From Geobacteraceae bacterium (GTDB taxonomy: Bacteria > Desulfobacterota > Desulfuromonadia > Desulfuromonadales > BM103), in NCBI GenBank assembly GCA_024641085.1, contig JAHEDT010000018.1, forward strand, positions 1-55,995: a stretch of DNA of 55,995 bases, written 5' to 3'. The position numbers were made by a program, and so were the translations under genes. The notes under the pieces were generated by a model. It was not told the origin of the DNA. It worked only from the letters and a program-made list of their open reading frames with translations, and searched no databases. Positions 1 through 7,936 of this stretch are shown here, one piece after another. How positions within the stretch are numbered: the first letter of the stretch is position 1; the number at the start of each line of letters is the position of its first letter.

Positions 1-665
1 TGGCCGAAGGGCCACTTGATGAAGACGCTGCGCGGCGGCTGGACCTTTTCGGTGTACTCGCGGATGATCGTCACCCCGACGGTGGGGATGCCGGCTTTCT
101 CGATCTCTCTCTGGATCAGTCCCACGGACTGATTGCAGATGCCTCAGGCCGGGGTCAGCAGGACCAGGTCGACGCCGTCCCGGCGGAGCCGGTCCGCGAC
201 CTGCCTGGCCGTCTGGCCGATCAGGGTGGCGATGTGCCGGCCGTCGATGTGCCCCATGAAGGAGTAGTGGGTGTCGGCCAGGTGGCCGATCACGCCCTCC
301 TGCTGCAGTTCCCGCAGCCGGTCGAGGGGGAAGATAATGTTGAGGTCCTTCTCGGCGTCGCTGTGGTCGTAGTAGTCATGGGTGATCCGGTAGTCCTCGC
401 CGATGGTCGCCCCGTCGATGGCCCGGAAACTCGGATCGCCCTCGCTGTCCTGCATGTCGAAGGACGGCTGGCCGCGATGGTGGACGCCCGAGGTGGTGAC
501 CAGGGCCAGCGTGCATTCGCTCAGCGGCTTGCGCGGCGGCGTCCACGGGATCGCCTCCCCCGACTCCCAGGGCTCGTAGGCGGTGATGAAGCGTTGGGCC
601 AGCCCCGGGTAACGGGTGATCAGCTTGGCAATCAGGCGGTTTTTCAATCGGCTGGTGATCGACAT
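1..665 (-). CDS. GrdB/PrdB-like selenoprotein (glycine/sarcosine/betaine reductase B family), 3' end outside window
   Basis: The frame from ATG 663-665 runs 173 codons to a TGA at complement 144-146 and then stays open to the window edge. The downstream part (GICNQSVGLIQREIEKAGI, later PPRSVFIKWPFG) continues the same family without a break. In Cys-containing relatives, as I recall them, this position reads TPVCPxCHQ..GL; here it is TPA-U-GIC, so UGA replaces the first Cys of a CxxC and gives a UxxC redox motif (U174, C177). A hairpin directly after the UGA (115-133) resembles a bacterial SECIS. The family contains the substrate-activating B subunits of glycine and proline reductases; the short stand-alone members have no firm function. 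A GAAGAG precedes the ATG by four bases. It is divergent from a radical SAM gene. A gene finder would wrongly truncate it. Confidence 0.85.
115..133 (-). other. Candidate bacterial SECIS hairpin for Sec insertion
   Basis: On the minus strand an 8-bp perfect stem (ATCAGTCC / GGACTGAT) closes a GUG loop. The loop lies 19-21 nt after the UGA at complement 144-146. Bacterial SECIS elements sit just 3' of the UGA, with a G or GU in the apical loop about 16-37 nt downstream, so both geometry and loop fit. The stem is perfect although it lies inside coding sequence. SelB recognition is inferred. Confidence 0.72.
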
Positions 666-747
666 CGGCTCTTCTCGTCAGGGTTGCATAAGGCATTATA
701 GCCTGATTTTCGTGGCGCGCGGCACTTTTCCGCGCATGGCGCAGCAT

Positions 748-820
748 CAGTCCCTGCCGTCAGGTGGGCCCTCGAGTTTTTCAGTCTACTGATTTCCGGA
801 TTCTGGATTCTGACTTCCGG
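748..820. repeat. Dispersed intergenic repeat, copy A
   Basis: This stretch between the divergent selenoprotein and radical SAM genes resembles 14867-14932. Both run CAGTCCC, then a CAGGTGG block, a GCGAGTTTTT-like block, and end in (C)TGGATTCTGGAT-like runs. The similarity also appears as related shadow translations on the minus strand (KNSRAHL.AGTD versus KNSRSHL.VGTD). It has no coding role that I can see; it is probably a REP/MITE-type family of the host chromosome. Confidence 0.55.
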
Positions 821-993
821 CTCCTCACCGGCTGGCCGTGGCGGAGTTAATTTGCACACAGATTTCCCCCTGTCCAAGGCCCGCCTGCACTAACCAGAAA
901 TTGTTTCCAGGCCATGGCTGTGGTAGGCTTTGTGAGCAGTCCTTGTCCAGGGGCTGTCGCTGTTTGCGCAGGGATCAAAATCGGGGGCAATTG

Positions 994-2325
994 GTGGCAC
1001 AAGGCAAAACCATACTGGCGGTGGTCGCCGACGTTCAGGGCGAGGTGTTCGAACACCCCGACCTGCTGATGGCGGGCATGAACGGCACGCAGGTGGTCGC
1101 GCCGCTGGCGGCGGAAATGATTCCGATGCCCGAGGGCAGCCGGCTGTTCACCATTCCGCAGACCCCGCCGGTCGGTTACGACCGGCGCAGCGGCCAACAG
1201 CTGACCACCGATCGCCTGCCCAAGAAGTGGGGCGGCGGGGCGATCCAGGCGGTCTCCGCTTTCCTGACCCCCGGCTATACCCGCACGCTGCTGCCGGCCG
1301 CCGACTACCAGCGCAAGGGCATGACTCTGCCGCTCTGGTCGTACACGGCGGTCGGCTGGTGCGTGGAGGAGGAGCGCTTCTACGTGGCGGCGGTCCAGGT
1401 CGATCGCAACAGCCAGTGGCAGCCCGATCACTTCGATGACCGCAAGCTCGATCCCCTGGTCAGGAAGGCGCTGAAAGCCAACCCCGACAACCGCCTGCTC
1501 GACCAGCTCGCGCGCTGTGCCCTCGATTACCACTGCTTTGCCGCGAAAAACCTGTTTTTCCGGCGCTGGGAAGCGCCCCTGCCAACGTCGCCGACCTGCA
1601 ACTCGCGCTGCGTCGGCTGCATCTCCCTGCAGGAATCGGACTGCTGCCCGGCCAGCCAGGAGCGCCTGACGTTCGTGCCGACCGTCGAGGAGCTGTGCGC
1701 CGTGGCGGTGCCGCACCTCAAGGAGGCGCAGAACGCGATCGTTTCCTTCGGCCAGGGCTGCGAGGGCGATCCGATTCTCCAGGCCGAGGTCATCTGCGCG
1801 GCGGTTCGCGAGATGCGCCGGGCGACCGCGCGCGGCACCATCAACTTCAACAGCAACGCCTCGCTGCCCGATGCCGTCGACCGGCTGGCGGCCGCCGGGG
1901 TCGAGTCGATCCGTGTGTCGCTCAACTCAGCCCGCGAACCGTTCTACAATGCCTACTACCGGCCGCGCGGCTACCGCTTTGCCGATGTCGTCGAATCGCT
2001 GCGCCGGGCCAAACGGGCCGGTCTCTATACCATGCTCAACTACCTGGTGTTCCCCGGGGTCAGCGACCGGCCCGACGAGATCGAGGCGCTGGCCGGCCTG
2101 GTCGAGGAGGTCGGCGTCGACATGATCCAGATGCGCAACCTGAGCCTCGACCCGGTCCTCTACCTGACCGCTCTGGGGGTGACCGGGCAGGGCGTCGGCA
2201 TGCTGGAGATGCTCAAGTGGCACAAGGCGCGTTTCCCGAAACTGCAGTACGGCTACTTCAACCGCACCCGCGAGACCTTTTTCCCGCCCGGTTACGAGAC
2301 GGAGTGGCCGATTGTACATGCTTAA
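994..2325 (+). CDS. Radical SAM domain protein
   Basis: About 443 aa from GTG 994, preceded by a GGGGG run six bases upstream; TTG 991 is an alternative, and the frame further upstream lacks family-like sequence. The radical SAM cluster motif is CNSRCVGC (CX3CX2C) near residue 200, followed by a second Cys-rich patch (ESDCCPAS) and a SFGQGCEGDP segment in the position of the usual GGEP SAM-binding motif. The first 190 residues form an extra N-terminal region that I do not recognise. The C-terminal barrel continues through NSNASLP, RVSLNSA and FPGVSD, typical of SPASM-free radical SAM enzymes. The substrate is unknown. Being divergent from the selenoprotein is suggestive but not evidence of a shared role. 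Confidence 0.8.
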   Translation: MAQGKTILAVVADVQGEVFEHPDLLMAGMNGTQVVAPLAAEMIPMPEGSRLFTIPQTPPVGYDRRSGQQLTTDRLPKKWGGGAIQAVSAFLTPGYTRTLLPAADYQRKGMTLPLWSYTAVGWCVEEERFYVAAVQVDRNSQWQPDHFDDRKLDPLVRKALKANPDNRLLDQLARCALDYHCFAAKNLFFRRWEAPLPTSPTCNSRCVGCISLQESDCCPASQERLTFVPTVEELCAVAVPHLKEAQNAIVSFGQGCEGDPILQAEVICAAVREMRRATARGTINFNSNASLPDAVDRLAAAGVESIRVSLNSAREPFYNAYYRPRGYRFADVVESLRRAKRAGLYTMLNYLVFPGVSDRPDEIEALAGLVEEVGVDMIQMRNLSLDPVLYLTALGVTGQGVGMLEMLKWHKARFPKLQYGYFNRTRETFFPPGYETEWPIVHA

Positions 2326-2517
2326 CTTTTCTCGGAGAACCTTTCGGTGAATACTGACTGGGATTGTCCTCGCCAAGAGCTCTGGTGGATCATGGCCACA
2401 TAAGGCCGTTACCAGCCGGACAATGATTTCCCCGAACGGGATTGTATGATTTAATGATGCCAGCCATTGGCTGAACGGGATGAGAGTGTAAAGAACAAAG
2501 GCCGGGAGGGTTTACTC

Positions 2518-3351
2518 ATGGGTTATGGCGATTTGCTTGGGAATACCGCGGAATGGTCCGTGGCCACGTTGCGCGAATATTTTCAGCAGCACCACCCCGA
2601 AGACTACCAGCTGATCGATGTCCGCCAGCTGCCCGAGTACAGCGCAGAACATCTGCCCGGCGCCCTCTGGATGCCTGCGGAAGAGCTGCCGCAGCGGCTG
2701 GCTGATATCGATGCGGCCAAAACCACCATCGTCTACTGCTCCCTTGGTTCGCTCAGCCGCGCCGCGGCCCAGCTGCTCATCAAGGCCGGTTTTCGTGACG
2801 TACATGTGCTTCAGGGGGGGATGCACAGCTGGCTTTACGGCGCGGCGACCGGTCTGCCCGGGCAGTTCTCCGCCCACCTGGCTGATGCCGGCAGCGCTCA
2901 GGAACAGGCCGTGCTGGCCTGGCGGGTCGAAGAGACCACCCGCCAGTTCTACGAGGAAATGGCGGATACCATAGACGATCCTCAAGTCTCCGCGCTGTTT
3001 GCCGAACTGGCGGCCGCGGAGAGCCACCACAAGGCCACCCTGCAAGCGCTCTGGGAGGCGCTGGCCGGCCGGCCGGCCGACCCGGTTTTCCCGGAAACGC
3101 CACCAGCTGAACAGGAGCTGATGGAGGGGGGAACGCGCCTCAGCGAGGCGCTCGCCTGGGCGGCGCAAAGCACCACGGCCAGGATTCTCGATTTCGCCAT
3201 GGCCCTCGAACTCAACGCCTACGATCACTATCTCTACCTGCAGCGCCACAGCACCGATCCCGACAGCCAGCGGCTGTTCGAAGTCATGGCCGACGAGGAG
3301 CGTCGTCATCTGCGGACCCTCGGCAAATCCCTGGAGAACCTCCAGCACTAG
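2518..3351 (+). CDS. Rhodanese-rubrerythrin-like fusion protein
   Basis: 277 aa; ATG 2518 is chosen because GGGAGGG lies eight bases upstream, whereas the longer open frame has neither a ribosome site nor family sequence. Residues ~15-115 form a rhodanese domain (LIDVRQLPEYSAEHLPGA; catalytic Cys in YCSLGSLS). Residues ~130-275 form a four-helix ferritin/rubrerythrin-type domain with diiron ligands in EETTRQFYEEM, AAAESHHKAT, ALELNAYDHY and DEERRHL. Such fusions are known in anaerobic delta-proteobacteria and are thought to act in sulfur or oxidative stress handling; the exact reaction is unproven. It is a single gene, convergent with acpH, and ends against a large palindrome. Confidence 0.85.
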   Translation: MGYGDLLGNTAEWSVATLREYFQQHHPEDYQLIDVRQLPEYSAEHLPGALWMPAEELPQRLADIDAAKTTIVYCSLGSLSRAAAQLLIKAGFRDVHVLQGGMHSWLYGAATGLPGQFSAHLADAGSAQEQAVLAWRVEETTRQFYEEMADTIDDPQVSALFAELAAAESHHKATLQALWEALAGRPADPVFPETPPAEQELMEGGTRLSEALAWAAQSTTARILDFAMALELNAYDHYLYLQRHSTDPDSQRLFEVMADEERRHLRTLGKSLENLQH

Positions 3352-4008: not shown

Positions 4009-5150
4009 AACCTGAGGATTTTGTTGTGCAGGATGAGGAGTTCGAAGGCCATCAAGGCCTTGCTGGCGAGTTGCTGCACGTCCACCACGGCCTCGGGGAG
4101 ATCTTTCGCCGGGTCGTCGACGTAGATCAGGCCGACCACGCGCCCGAGCATGCTCATGGGGATAAGCAGGGCGGTTTTGGGTGCCGGCTTGCCGAGAACC
4201 GCGGTCAGGGCCAGGTTGGTGTCACTCTGCGGCACCGGGCCGAGGAACAGGCTTTTGCTCTCCACCGCGGTCTTCAAAATGGACGGTTCGGAGAGCGGCA
4301 GCTGAAACTGGTCGAATCCCGGGATCGGCCGACCGTCCTTGGCCGAGCGCCAGCCGGTGACCTGGCCGGCAACCACCATGAAGAGAGCCGCCCGGGCGTA
4401 ATGTGCGCCGAGGTAGGCGATCACGGCATCGGCGACATCGTCGCGGTCGGTCGCCTTGACCAGGGCCTGAACGGTGCTCGCCAGGGTGATCCCTTCCTGG
4501 CCCACGTCCTCGATCAGGTCCTGATCGGTTAATTCTTCGATCGCCTCGACAACCGGTTCCGTGGTGTCTTCGGGCTTCTGGTAAATCCATTCCGAACCGG
4601 GCATGCCAAGCTCTTCATCGGTTTCGGGTGCCGCGACCGGTCCTTCCGGTGTGTCGAAGATGTGCACCTGGTTCAGCTCTTCGCGGACCTGCCTGGGCGG
4701 GGCGATATAGCGCATGGTGCGCTTGATGCCGTAGTACTCTTCCAGGGCAAAGACCAGCCGCACTTCCAGGGCCAGGACCGGTTTGACGATATAGCCGGTA
4801 CGAAACGAGATCTCGTCGATCGATTTCAGGTTGTGAGGGTCGGCCATGGCCAGGGTCAGCTTCTTGCCGTTGACCGCAACCGGTATGACTTTGTGCTTTT
4901 CTGCCAGTTCGGGACTGATGATTTTGATGACATCGGCAGAGATGTCCTGCATCTGACCCGGTTGCGCACAGGGGATCGAGAGGAGTTGGGCCAGGTTCTC
5001 GGCCAGGGCCCCCTCGCTGATCAGGCCCATTTCGATGAGTATGGTGCCGAGCTTGCCACCGAAAATGACCTGGGCCTGCAACGCCTCTTCGAGCTGCGCC
5101 TTGGTCAGCATATCTTTCTTGATCAGCAGTTCGCCTAGTCTGATTTTCAT
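4005..5150 (-). CDS. MshEN (T2SS E N-terminal) domain protein with GAF-like C-terminus, no ATPase
   Basis: 381 aa. Residues 1-60 carry two tandem MshEN-type motifs (RLGELLIKKDMLTKAQLEEA and KLGTILIEMGLISEGALAEN), the pattern that binds cyclic di-GMP in MshE-like ATPases. Residues ~60-150 complete the GspE_N fold (AEKHKVIPVAV..LTLAMADPHN). There is no Walker A, so this is not a pilus ATPase. After an acidic, probably disordered linker (~165-205), the C-terminus (LASTVQALVKATDRDD..ALLIPM..VVGLIYVDD) looks like a GAF-type sensory domain. It lies between an M23 peptidase and acpH on the same strand. A c-di-GMP receptor role is inferred. Confidence 0.75.
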   Translation of the reverse strand: MKIRLGELLIKKDMLTKAQLEEALQAQVIFGGKLGTILIEMGLISEGALAENLAQLLSIPCAQPGQMQDISADVIKIISPELAEKHKVIPVAVNGKKLTLAMADPHNLKSIDEISFRTGYIVKPVLALEVRLVFALEEYYGIKRTMRYIAPPRQVREELNQVHIFDTPEGPVAAPETDEELGMPGSEWIYQKPEDTTEPVVEAIEELTDQDLIEDVGQEGITLASTVQALVKATDRDDVADAVIAYLGAHYARAALFMVVAGQVTGWRSAKDGRPIPGFDQFQLPLSEPSILKTAVESKSLFLGPVPQSDTNLALTAVLGKPAPKTALLIPMSMLGRVVGLIYVDDPAKDLPEAVVDVQQLASKALMAFELLILHNKILRL

Positions 5151-5171
5151 GGTGCGCGTCCCTTGAGGTGA

Positions 5172-6491
5172 TTAATTCGAAGATGGGCTGTCTGACGATT
5201 CTGTGCTGGCCGTCTGGACGCCCGGCGGATCGTTCAGCCGGGCCATGAGGTTCTCTGCCTGGATGTTGAAATCAGCGAGGTTGGTTTTGGAAACCGGTTG
5301 GGCCGCAGGGGCCTTGACGCGGCTCGGGTTCGCCGGGGCGCCGTTTTTGAACATCCGGAAGCAGAGGTGCGGCCCGGTGGCGAGACCGGTGCTGCCGACG
5401 TAACCGATCACCTGCCCCTGGGCAACCCGCTTACCCTGGCCGATGCCCCTGGCAAAACCCTTCATGTGCAGGTACATGGTTTCGTAGCTGCTGTTGTGGC
5501 GGATCTTGACGAAGTTGCCATTGCCGCGCGTGTAGCCTTTCCTGATGATGACGCCATCGCCGACGCTTTTGATCGGGGTCCCGGGAGGCGCGGCGTAATC
5601 GATGGCCGGATGCGCCTTCCAGGTCTTGGTGATCGGGTGGAAACGGCGCATGGTGAAACCTGAAGAGATGCGTGAAAAGGAGAGTGGTGCTTTGAGAAAG
5701 GCTTTGCGCAGGCTCTGGCCGCTGGCATCGTAATAGTCGGCACGCCGGTCGCCGTCCTGGTAAAGGAAGGCCTGAAACGTGGCGCCCTGGTTGGTGAAAT
5801 CAGCGGCCAGGATCCGACCGTAACCCGCCGGCTGCCCTTCCCGGAAACGTTTCTCCACCAGGGCCTGAAAGGAGTCTCCCTGGCGAATGTCGAGGATGAA
5901 GTCGATATCCCAGGCAAAAATATCGGCCAGGTTCATGGCCAGGATATCGCTTTCGCCGGTCGCGGTGACCGCTTCAAAAAGGCTGCTTTCGATCGTGCCC
6001 CGGACGCGTACGACCTCCGTGGTGTATGGGATCGGCACCTTTTCGATGGCGAAGTTGTCAGCCTCTCGGGAGATAATCAGCTGTTCATCCCGGTCGATAT
6101 CATATTCAAAACGTTCGAACTGGTCGTCGCTCAGGCAGAGCCGGTAGGGTTGGCCTGCACTGAGCTTGGAGAGGGGAAAGACCTGTTTGCACTGCTGGCT
6201 CAATTCATGGAGTTCTGCCGCAGAGAAGAACTGTCCCAGCAGGCCGGTTGCCGTGTCGCCCTGGGCAATGGTCCCATTGATAATCTCTTTCCGGATTTCA
6301 GGGACGGGTGGCGGTGGTGGGGGCGCCGCCGGTGCGGCCGTGTGCGCCTCGGTCGTGGTGACCGTCGGACGCAGAAAGAGGGGCACCAGCAGCAGGACGA
6401 GCAGGCACAGAAGCAGCCAGATGCGCAGGCCGGGTATGGATCGGCCGGGTTTGGCCGTAGAGTTTTTGGGGGGGTGAAAATCGAAATCCAA
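5172..6491 (-). CDS. Membrane-anchored M23 (LytM) endopeptidase, OapA/MepM-like, with His-x-Cys variant motif
   Basis: 439 aa from a TTG (complement 6489-6491) with GGAAG eight bases upstream; no in-frame ATG lies nearby. One transmembrane segment (residues ~24-41) is followed by a proline-rich periplasmic stretch, a LysM/OapA-like region and an M23 domain at ~275-385. The first zinc motif HPAIDY (HxxxD) is intact. The second reads GPHLCFRM rather than GPHLHF, so the residue normally acting as the third zinc ligand is Cys. I believe the same variant occurs in some other M23 subfamilies, so activity may be kept. Likely a DD-endopeptidase for peptidoglycan expansion, 21 bp upstream of the MshEN gene. 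Confidence 0.85.
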   Translation of the reverse strand: MDFDFHPPKNSTAKPGRSIPGLRIWLLLCLLVLLLVPLFLRPTVTTTEAHTAAPAAPPPPPPVPEIRKEIINGTIAQGDTATGLLGQFFSAAELHELSQQCKQVFPLSKLSAGQPYRLCLSDDQFERFEYDIDRDEQLIISREADNFAIEKVPIPYTTEVVRVRGTIESSLFEAVTATGESDILAMNLADIFAWDIDFILDIRQGDSFQALVEKRFREGQPAGYGRILAADFTNQGATFQAFLYQDGDRRADYYDASGQSLRKAFLKAPLSFSRISSGFTMRRFHPITKTWKAHPAIDYAAPPGTPIKSVGDGVIIRKGYTRGNGNFVKIRHNSSYETMYLHMKGFARGIGQGKRVAQGQVIGYVGSTGLATGPHLCFRMFKNGAPANPSRVKAPAAQPVSKTNLADFNIQAENLMARLNDPPGVQTASTESSDSPSSN

Positions 6492-6799
6492 GGGTCACTT
6501 CCTGTCGGGGTAAGAGCGATAACTACCCGATAAACAAAATTTATCCATACTAGCAGGGTGACCAGCGATTTGTCTAGGAATCTGTGGGCGTCCAGGGATT
6601 GTTTTTATCCTGCCTCCGTCACGTTTATCGCGCTGAGAAGACCCATGACCCGCAGTGTGCGGCCGGAGAGCTGATTCGGTTTTGCTTGCCCGGCGATGTG
6701 GTGGTAAGCTGATTACCAGTACTGTCTGGCAACGGGCCTGGACGGTGCCGGATTCCCGGCGCCCTTGGCTTGATACCTTCAACATAAAGGAGTTTTTGC
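6492..6799. other. Intergenic region between divergent M23 and PepT-like genes
   Basis: About 300 bp without a convincing gene. It must hold the two divergent promoters, but I see no sigma-70 pair good enough to name. Short open frames here lack ribosome sites and recognisable sequence. Confidence 0.4.
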
Positions 6800-7936
6800 A
6801 TGATCAACCGGCAGCGTCTCAGCGATGGCTTTGCCCGTCTGGCCGCCATCAACAGTCCCCCATTAAAAGAGGGCCAGATCGCCCGTCACCTGGAAGAGCG
6901 TTTGCAGGCTCTCGGTGGTGAGGTCTGCTTCGACCAGGCGGCTGCCAGCACCGGTGGCGAGGTCGGCAACCTGGTCGCGTATTTTCCCGGCACCGGCAAG
7001 GGAACCGAGCCGCTGCTCTTTTCAGTGCACATGGACACGGTGGCTCCGGGCGGCCAGGTCGAACCGGTTTTGCGGGACGGGGTGTTTTACAGCGCGGGCG
7101 ACACGGTCCTCGGCGCCGATGACAAGGCCGGGATTGCCGAACTGCTCGAAGCTCTGGAGGTGGTTGGCGAGCAGGGCATTGTGCACGGCCCGATCGAGGT
7201 CGTGGTCTCGATCGCCGAAGAGATCGGCCTGGTCGGGGCCAAGCACCTTGACTACGGACTGCTCAAGGCGCGCCGGGGCTTCGCTCTGGACACAGAGGGT
7301 GTTGAGCAGATGGTCCTCAAGGCACCCGGTGCGAACCGCATGAAAGTGGAGATTACCGGCCTTGCCGCGCATGCCGGCCTGGCTCCCGAGCTGGGAATGT
7401 CGGCTATCCAGACGGCGGCCTTGGCCATTGCCCGCATGCAGTTGGGCCGCATCGACCACGAAACCACTGCCAATATCGGCCGTATCGAGGGTGGGGTGGC
7501 GACCAATATCGTGCCGCAGAAAGTGACCCTGCAGGGCGAGGCCCGCAGCCATGACCCGCACAAACTGCAGGCGCAGACGGAACACATGCTGGCCTGCTTT
7601 GAGGAGGCGGCCGACGCTATGGCCCGGGAGATCGGCGGCAAGCTGGTGCGCCCCGTGGTCAGCGTAGAGGTCAAGGCAGATTTTGCGAGGATGGCTGTTG
7701 CCGAAGAGGCCCCGGTCGTGCAACTGGCCAGGAGTGCCGCCGCTGCGGTCGGCCAGAAGATCGTGGTGCGCCTGGGCGGCGGCGGCAGCGATGCCAATAT
7801 CTTCAATGCCCACGGGATCGAAATGATTATCCTCGCCACCGGCATGCAAGGTGTTCATACCCATGACGAGTCGGTCGCGGTAGCCGACATGGCGCATGTG
7901 ACCGAACTGCTGGTCGAAATCATCCGCCAGGCTTAG
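6800..7936 (+). CDS. M20 family metallopeptidase, PepT-like
   Basis: 378 aa; AAAGGAG lies eight bases before ATG 6800. The dizinc site is complete: HMDTVAPG (His/Asp), GADDKAG (bridging Asp), the catalytic EE in IAEEIGL, ALDTEG, and the last His in GVHTHDE. The lid domain segment ITGLAAHAGLAPE is present. This matches peptidase T-like (M20B) aminopeptidases, which cleave small peptides in the cytoplasm. Length and motifs are normal. It stands alone and ends at a strong hairpin shared with the convergent srkA gene. Confidence 0.9.
   Translation: MINRQRLSDGFARLAAINSPPLKEGQIARHLEERLQALGGEVCFDQAAASTGGEVGNLVAYFPGTGKGTEPLLFSVHMDTVAPGGQVEPVLRDGVFYSAGDTVLGADDKAGIAELLEALEVVGEQGIVHGPIEVVVSIAEEIGLVGAKHLDYGLLKARRGFALDTEGVEQMVLKAPGANRMKVEITGLAAHAGLAPELGMSAIQTAALAIARMQLGRIDHETTANIGRIEGGVATNIVPQKVTLQGEARSHDPHKLQAQTEHMLACFEEAADAMAREIGGKLVRPVVSVEVKADFARMAVAEEAPVVQLARSAAAAVGQKIVVRLGGGGSDANIFNAHGIEMIILATGMQGVHTHDESVAVADMAHVTELLVEIIRQA

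Follow-up and report, generated by a model that had tools for sequence, protein, structure and literature searches.

The start of this contig raises the question of whether a reading frame interrupted by an in-frame UGA codon encodes a selenoprotein and, if it does, which reaction such a protein could serve. The window, by which we mean the whole stretch of DNA that was analysed (55,995 bases), is the entire contig C108 of a Geobacteraceae draft genome of 3.5 Mb in 151 contigs, so the contig end truncates the gene. As originally predicted, an ORF with an in-frame UGA is present: it starts with an ATG at position 665 on the minus strand, meets its first in-frame stop, a TGA at 146-144, after 173 aa, and beyond it the reading frame is open down to base 1. 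The same prediction described a short protein, which turned out to be true of the window part only. When the own genome was searched, an identical copy of residues 183-221 turned up where contig C62 ends; the ends of C108 and C62 overlap by 121 identical bases, and joining them gives a frame of 280 aa. Automatic annotation would end this gene at 173 aa, while the product is very probably the full selenoprotein. The closest named relative is a protein of another Geobacteraceae bacterium (L023, 90% identity). Our preferred reading, to which we give a probability of about three in four, is that the gene encodes a 280-residue stand-alone selenoprotein that would act as a PrdA-independent selenol/thiol reductase, Sec 174 being presumably inserted through a hairpin, SelB and tRNA-Sec. 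The features concerned are the following.

Positions 1 to 665, minus strand: gene of a stand-alone selenoprotein of the GrdB/PrdB superfamily, first 221 of 280 codons; frame open save for one TGA, 3' end on contig C62.
Positions 144 to 146, minus strand: in-frame UGA, predicted selenocysteine 174 (U-G-I-C, residues 174-177); TGA in 110 of 111 partly overlapping matches, Cys in L165, L166 and L168.
Positions 115 to 133, minus strand: SECIS-like hairpin, 8-bp stem and GUG loop; covariation at pairs 15-31 and 18-28, only GGA or GGG at the Gly codon.
Positions 110 to 139, minus strand: extended hairpin with four additional pairs at its base, two of them invariant and two often unpaired.

The protein falls in the PrdB/GrdB superfamily, with 63.3 bits against PF07355 (GRDB, cut-off 22) and 78.3 bits against TIGR01918 (cut-off 65.45). 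Its best NCBIfam match is TIGR04483 (PrdB), at 146.2 bits for the 221 aa of the window and 179.1 bits for the full-length L023 protein, and all 61 family members compared match this model. This result, together with an identity of 37-40% to the best plasmid PrdB, could indicate a genuine PrdB, the selenium subunit of D-proline reductase, which would reduce D-proline with a PrdA encoded elsewhere; however, neither the window part nor the L023 protein reaches the equivalog cut-off of 300 bits. Genuine PrdB genes from six loci in plasmid records were taken as controls, and with three PrdA queries PrdA was found adjoining PrdB in 6 of 6, including L161 and L165, where it is missing from the gene table, and the unannotated L169. 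Weak GrdE-like matches to the same queries were obtained in the three GrdB loci L158, L160 and L167 (in L160 by one query of the three). In contrast, there was no PrdA match in the window or in the family loci (the best 80 of 208, with flanks of up to 5 kb, some of them shorter because contigs end), and the GrdE queries matched each other only and nothing beside these best 80 of 208. For a more distant PrdA in the own genome the search relied solely on PF09338, which had no match there and was equally silent in all 14 control genomes; for two GrdE from the same phylum the model gives 627 and 469 bits. One of the control loci, on a Paraclostridium bifermentans plasmid (L165, 3501-4139), carries a PrdB with Cys (CGTC) that is unannotated in the table, and the adjoining PrdA-like stretch is split over two frames.

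The tree and the invariant residues bear on the same point. The six PrdA-linked PrdB form their own clade (99/99) with the window protein outside it, and two further clades consist of GrdB and of the two Cys forms from alphaproteobacteria, the window protein being in neither. As the tree carries a long-branch warning, it was used only to tell the PrdB, GrdB and alphaproteobacterial groups apart from one another; it does not show the stand-alone proteins as one clade and its deep forks are unsupported, so that it allows PrdB to have arisen among them. Among 61 stand-alone proteins (of 75 usable named ones) 28 columns are invariant, and several of these residues differ in the four of six PrdB compared, with H101 replaced by N, N178 by H and P223 by N. 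Taken together, the score below the cut-off, the lack of PrdA nearby, the position outside the PrdB clade and the differing invariant residues suggest that the protein is PrdB-like around the UxxC but, by the tests made, not PrdB, and we regard a genuine PrdB with a remote PrdA as unlikely. The two proteins nevertheless share a superfamily, the UxxC at the same alignment position in five of the six PrdB (CxxC in the sixth) and a similar length, with 237-241 aa in four complete PrdB versus 280 aa here. GrdB is likewise a UxxC protein, and the window protein matches the second half of its models (PF07355, TIGR01918) above cut-off, but GrdB of L158 has 437 aa, whereas the window protein lacks the N-terminal half and has no GrdE nearby. 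The stand-alone Cys relatives from Roseomonas (L166) and Haematobacter (L168) resemble the stand-alone selenoprotein in that no PrdA match was found in the stretch fetched, yet they have CxxC in place of UxxC, share about 30-33% identity with it, form a separate clade and differ at several invariant residues.

The original prediction hoped for a potential new redox enzyme. The novelty is smaller than that, since UxxC selenoproteins of this superfamily are already catalogued in surveys as 'proline reductase PrdB'. In the Sargasso Sea, 42 UxxC PrdB selenoprotein genes were counted in 2005 (PMC1088965), the GOS survey lists PrdB with 235 Sec and 110 Cys forms under pfam07355 (PMC2398784), and a survey of 2006 credits 'Geobacter uraniumreducens' and Anaeromyxobacter with selenoproteins labelled 'proline reductase' (PMC1794560); PrdB and GrdB are also given as UxxC families in two reviews (PMC9312934, PMC13188914). 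By description, these environmental proteins resemble the present one in their UxxC, their UGA and their marine and deltaproteobacterial origin, and the sets probably include the stand-alone branch. They differ in that the accessible text of the three surveys (PMC1088965, PMC2398784, PMC1794560) sets no PrdA-less branch apart, and a text search of the open-access literature, within the text it covers, returned no paper on a stand-alone PrdB-like family. A large protein set that comes without the partner gene needed for this reaction has probably been counted as proline reductase. For fluoroacetate, a GrdB-like protein with another substrate has been proposed, alongside a GrdE-like gene (PMC10838667). 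The earlier suggestion that the stand-alone form has no assigned substrate is plausible and gains strength from the lack of PrdA or GrdE nearby; stand-alone proteins without a pyruvoyl partner gene probably carry out a reaction that has yet to be assigned. We lean towards the view that they make up a widespread, nearly Sec-exclusive part of the superfamily, present in Desulfuromonadales, other delta-type groups and Nitrospirota, which would catalyze a novel reduction without a pyruvoyl subunit and for which the proline and glycine reductase labels would be wrong.

Insertion of selenocysteine would require selA-selD in the host, as the original prediction pointed out. Three of these genes, selA (530 bits), selB (397 bits) and selD (374 bits), lie together on contig C146 of the own genome, whereas the fourth, selC, was not found in this draft. 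Neither the tRNA-Sec model nor a DNA query made from the 96-base tRNA-Sec of a relative detected the gene in the own 151-contig assembly or in the only other genome of the same genus (G005, about 270 contigs). The best match of the model in the own genome is a tRNA-Trp according to ARAGORN and was rejected. Altogether, tRNA-Sec was found in 13 of the 15 genomes searched, each time with 68 bits or more, the two without it being those of this genus, and ARAGORN calls a tRNA-Sec at 12 loci of the relatives. Such a pattern could mean that selC was lost in the genus and that the UGA is read through by non-Sec means, with another residue or a non-canonical tRNA. We consider this very unlikely because both genomes are drafts, the selA, selB and selD genes of the host are intact, selD itself carries an in-frame TGA (motif SSGUAAK) and both the window and L023 retain the hairpin. 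We read the missing tRNA-Sec as a probable gap in two draft assemblies. Within the order, selA is present in 36 of 37 genomes with a family match compared with 80 of 99 without one (Fisher p 0.014, uncorrected for relatedness), and the exception (G014), which has a family match and lacks selA, does have a tRNA-Sec.

The homologues argue for selenocysteine 174. The TGA is found at the Sec site in 110 of 111 tblastn matches, and the remaining one has GGA; these sets overlap in part, as they consist of the window, 81 matches in 80 named loci and 29 loci of the order that partly repeat the same genomes. Among the named genomes (best 80 of 208 confirmed stretches), TGA accounts for 80 of 81 matches and GGA for one. 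Cys was seen at the site in none of the 111 closer matches, although one of the six scan patterns had Cys there, so that Cys homologues were not disfavoured. The scan of the order gave matches in 37 of 136 genomes, of which G026 and G030 match solely through a remote GrdB-type frame of 449 residues. The in-frame TGA is present in 40 of the 41 places listed, its exact position having been verified in 29 loci, and the other place is the continuation of the window gene on C62. In the draw from the phylum 98 of 395 genomes match, and the sole near-full-length close match without a stop is the GGA gene, evidently the same genome again (selA present). This gene (L066, 5511-5513, Deltaproteobacteria GWB2_55_19) has Gly at the Sec position, an intact hairpin and selA in its genome, and the change may be either a sequencing error or a very recent loss. 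A remote match in another genome (G170, L156) has Thr at the Sec site.

The sequence behind the UGA is conserved as that of a protein. The original prediction saw similarity on both sides of the codon, and the homologues do go on past it with strong similarity: the majority residue accounts on average for a fraction of 0.67 over residues 41-173 and of 0.74 over residues 183-264, which shows no drop past the UGA. Compared with L023, the codon changes behind the UGA (16 synonymous and 12 not, in 106 codons) resemble those in front of it (25 synonymous and 17 not, in 173 codons). The UGA was also said to take the place of the first Cys of a CxxC, and in the alignment with more distant Cys relatives a Cys does stand there, in L165 (CGTC), L166 (CPVC) and L168 (CPIC).

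An RNA element lies directly behind the codon. An 8-bp stem with a GUG loop had been predicted 19-21 nt downstream and is located exactly there, the stem (AUCAGUCC/GGACUGAU) beginning at the 11th nucleotide past the TGA and the loop being the 19th to 21st. Hairpins of the bacterial SECIS type carry a G in the apical loop, and the first loop base is G in 77 of 78 unique sequences. The exception comes from a decayed-looking copy (L052, about 5499-5546) that has the loop UAC instead of GUN and 67 residues of open frame upstream. A search of Rfam gave nothing relevant in window positions 1-2400 or on contig C146. Against dinucleotide shuffles the window hairpin is unexceptional (z of -0.19, -1.18 and -1.05 for three cuts). 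Against codon shuffles that preserve the protein, the window folds at -14.8 versus -8.1 (sd 2.5), with 1 of 200 shuffles as good, and z is negative in 74 of 78 unique homologous segments (mean -1.87).

Changes in the stem occur in pairs. Of the 78 unique sequences, 63 have G-C and 15 have A-U at pair 18-28, with no mixed case, and the changes are synonymous on both sides (CAG/CAA with CTG/TTG). At pair 15-31, 67 sequences have U-A, 9 have C-G and 2 have the pair broken; the change on its 3' side replaces Ile by Val. One Gly codon takes part in the stem with its third base, and all 78 of 78 sequences use GGA or GGG for it, compared with 551 of 1284 Gly codons elsewhere in the same genes. For the named structure, counted on 61 of the 78 unique hairpins (L052 and L066 left out), 25 doubly changed cells were obtained versus 7.6 (sd 2.1) in shuffles and the covariation score was 0.175 versus 0.126, both values being reached by 0 of 500 shuffles and both inflated by the relatedness of the sequences; two of the five pair-count measures are no higher than in shuffles, and a slide of -1 also yields 25 cells. 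As to the longer form, pairs 10-35 and 11-34 are formed in 60 of 60 sequences and never vary, while of the 60 sequences 22 have pair 8-37 open, 25 have pair 9-36 open and 11 have pair 21-25 open. A hairpin kept through paired codon changes is a clear case of RNA constraint within a coding region. An ordinary stop or nonsense mutation, leaving a truncated protein or a pseudogene, would agree with the missing tRNA-Sec and with the decayed-looking copies L052 and L038, but is hardly credible in view of the near-universal TGA at the site in partly overlapping matches, the conservation over residues 183-264, the like codon changes on both sides of the UGA and the covarying hairpin. With Sec genes in the genome and homologues that do not stop at the site, selenocysteine stands as the best reading, as first proposed, and we hold it highly probable that the UGA is decoded in this way.

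Under the preferred reading of a stand-alone, PrdA-independent reductase, several steps can be proposed. Sec 174 would be inserted at the UGA by means of SelB, tRNA-Sec and the hairpin that immediately follows the codon. The selenol of U174 would attack a small electrophilic substrate, held by the invariant residues H96, Y99, H101, D107 and R212 that presumably line the pocket; C177 could then resolve the adduct as a selenenylsulfide, to be reduced by a thioredoxin-like donor. Since no gene of a pyruvoyl subunit (PrdA or GrdE) lies alongside, cleavage of an amino-acid C-N bond by the Schiff-base route is not expected, and the substrate is therefore probably other than proline, glycine, sarcosine or betaine. 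Its identity would reveal what a selenol of the GrdB/PrdB type is able to reduce without a partner.

The gene neighbours were considered as a guide to this substrate and set aside, as they are too mixed among groups to name any. A radical SAM gene in the window (838-2325) is divergent from the selenoprotein gene and is followed at 2467-3351 by a gene that fuses a rhodanese domain to a rubrerythrin/ferritin-like domain. On C62, the gene downstream in the same direction clusters with B12-binding radical SAM genes, a group seen in 7 loci including the window. A cluster of rhodanese genes occurs in 16 loci, 17 of its 18 genes being upstream on the same strand, and each of the two examples scanned carries a pair of rhodanese domains. 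P-type ATPases occur in 15 loci, with YHS domains in the one scanned. Among 119 neighbours chosen mechanically (same strand, nearby, at least 115 aa; 119 of the 122 listed, one duplicate and two long ones being left out), Rhodanese was found 18 times, P-type ATPase 13 times and radical SAM 8 times. Many Desulfuromonadales loci have a double-rhodanese gene immediately upstream, a hint of chemistry that involves sulfur or selenium.

For the fold, the AlphaFold2 model of the L023 homologue has a pLDDT of 94.6 and a pTM of 0.92, with alternating strands and helices. A sequence search of the PDB brought up nothing convincing (best E 0.34 and 0.095), Foldseek with this model gave no match at E 0.001 or better, and the best VIA hit with it (Z 7.8) is, according to the tool, perhaps merely a common arrangement. 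A link of the window protein to the Asp/Glu racemase fold is something we presume possible.

Some family copies depart from the usual form. In L038 a TAG follows 34 codons past the Sec site and the copy looks decayed, and in L157 (400-406) a truncated copy has its TGA and downstream frame one base out of register. The frame of L062 (3657-5141) extends 318 residues beyond the Sec codon instead of the usual about 100, and a second Pfam domain was looked for and not found. Finally, L056 carries two adjacent family copies (4302-5165 and 6732-7538), with 57% and 40% identity to L023; the second copy is divergent and also has the TGA.
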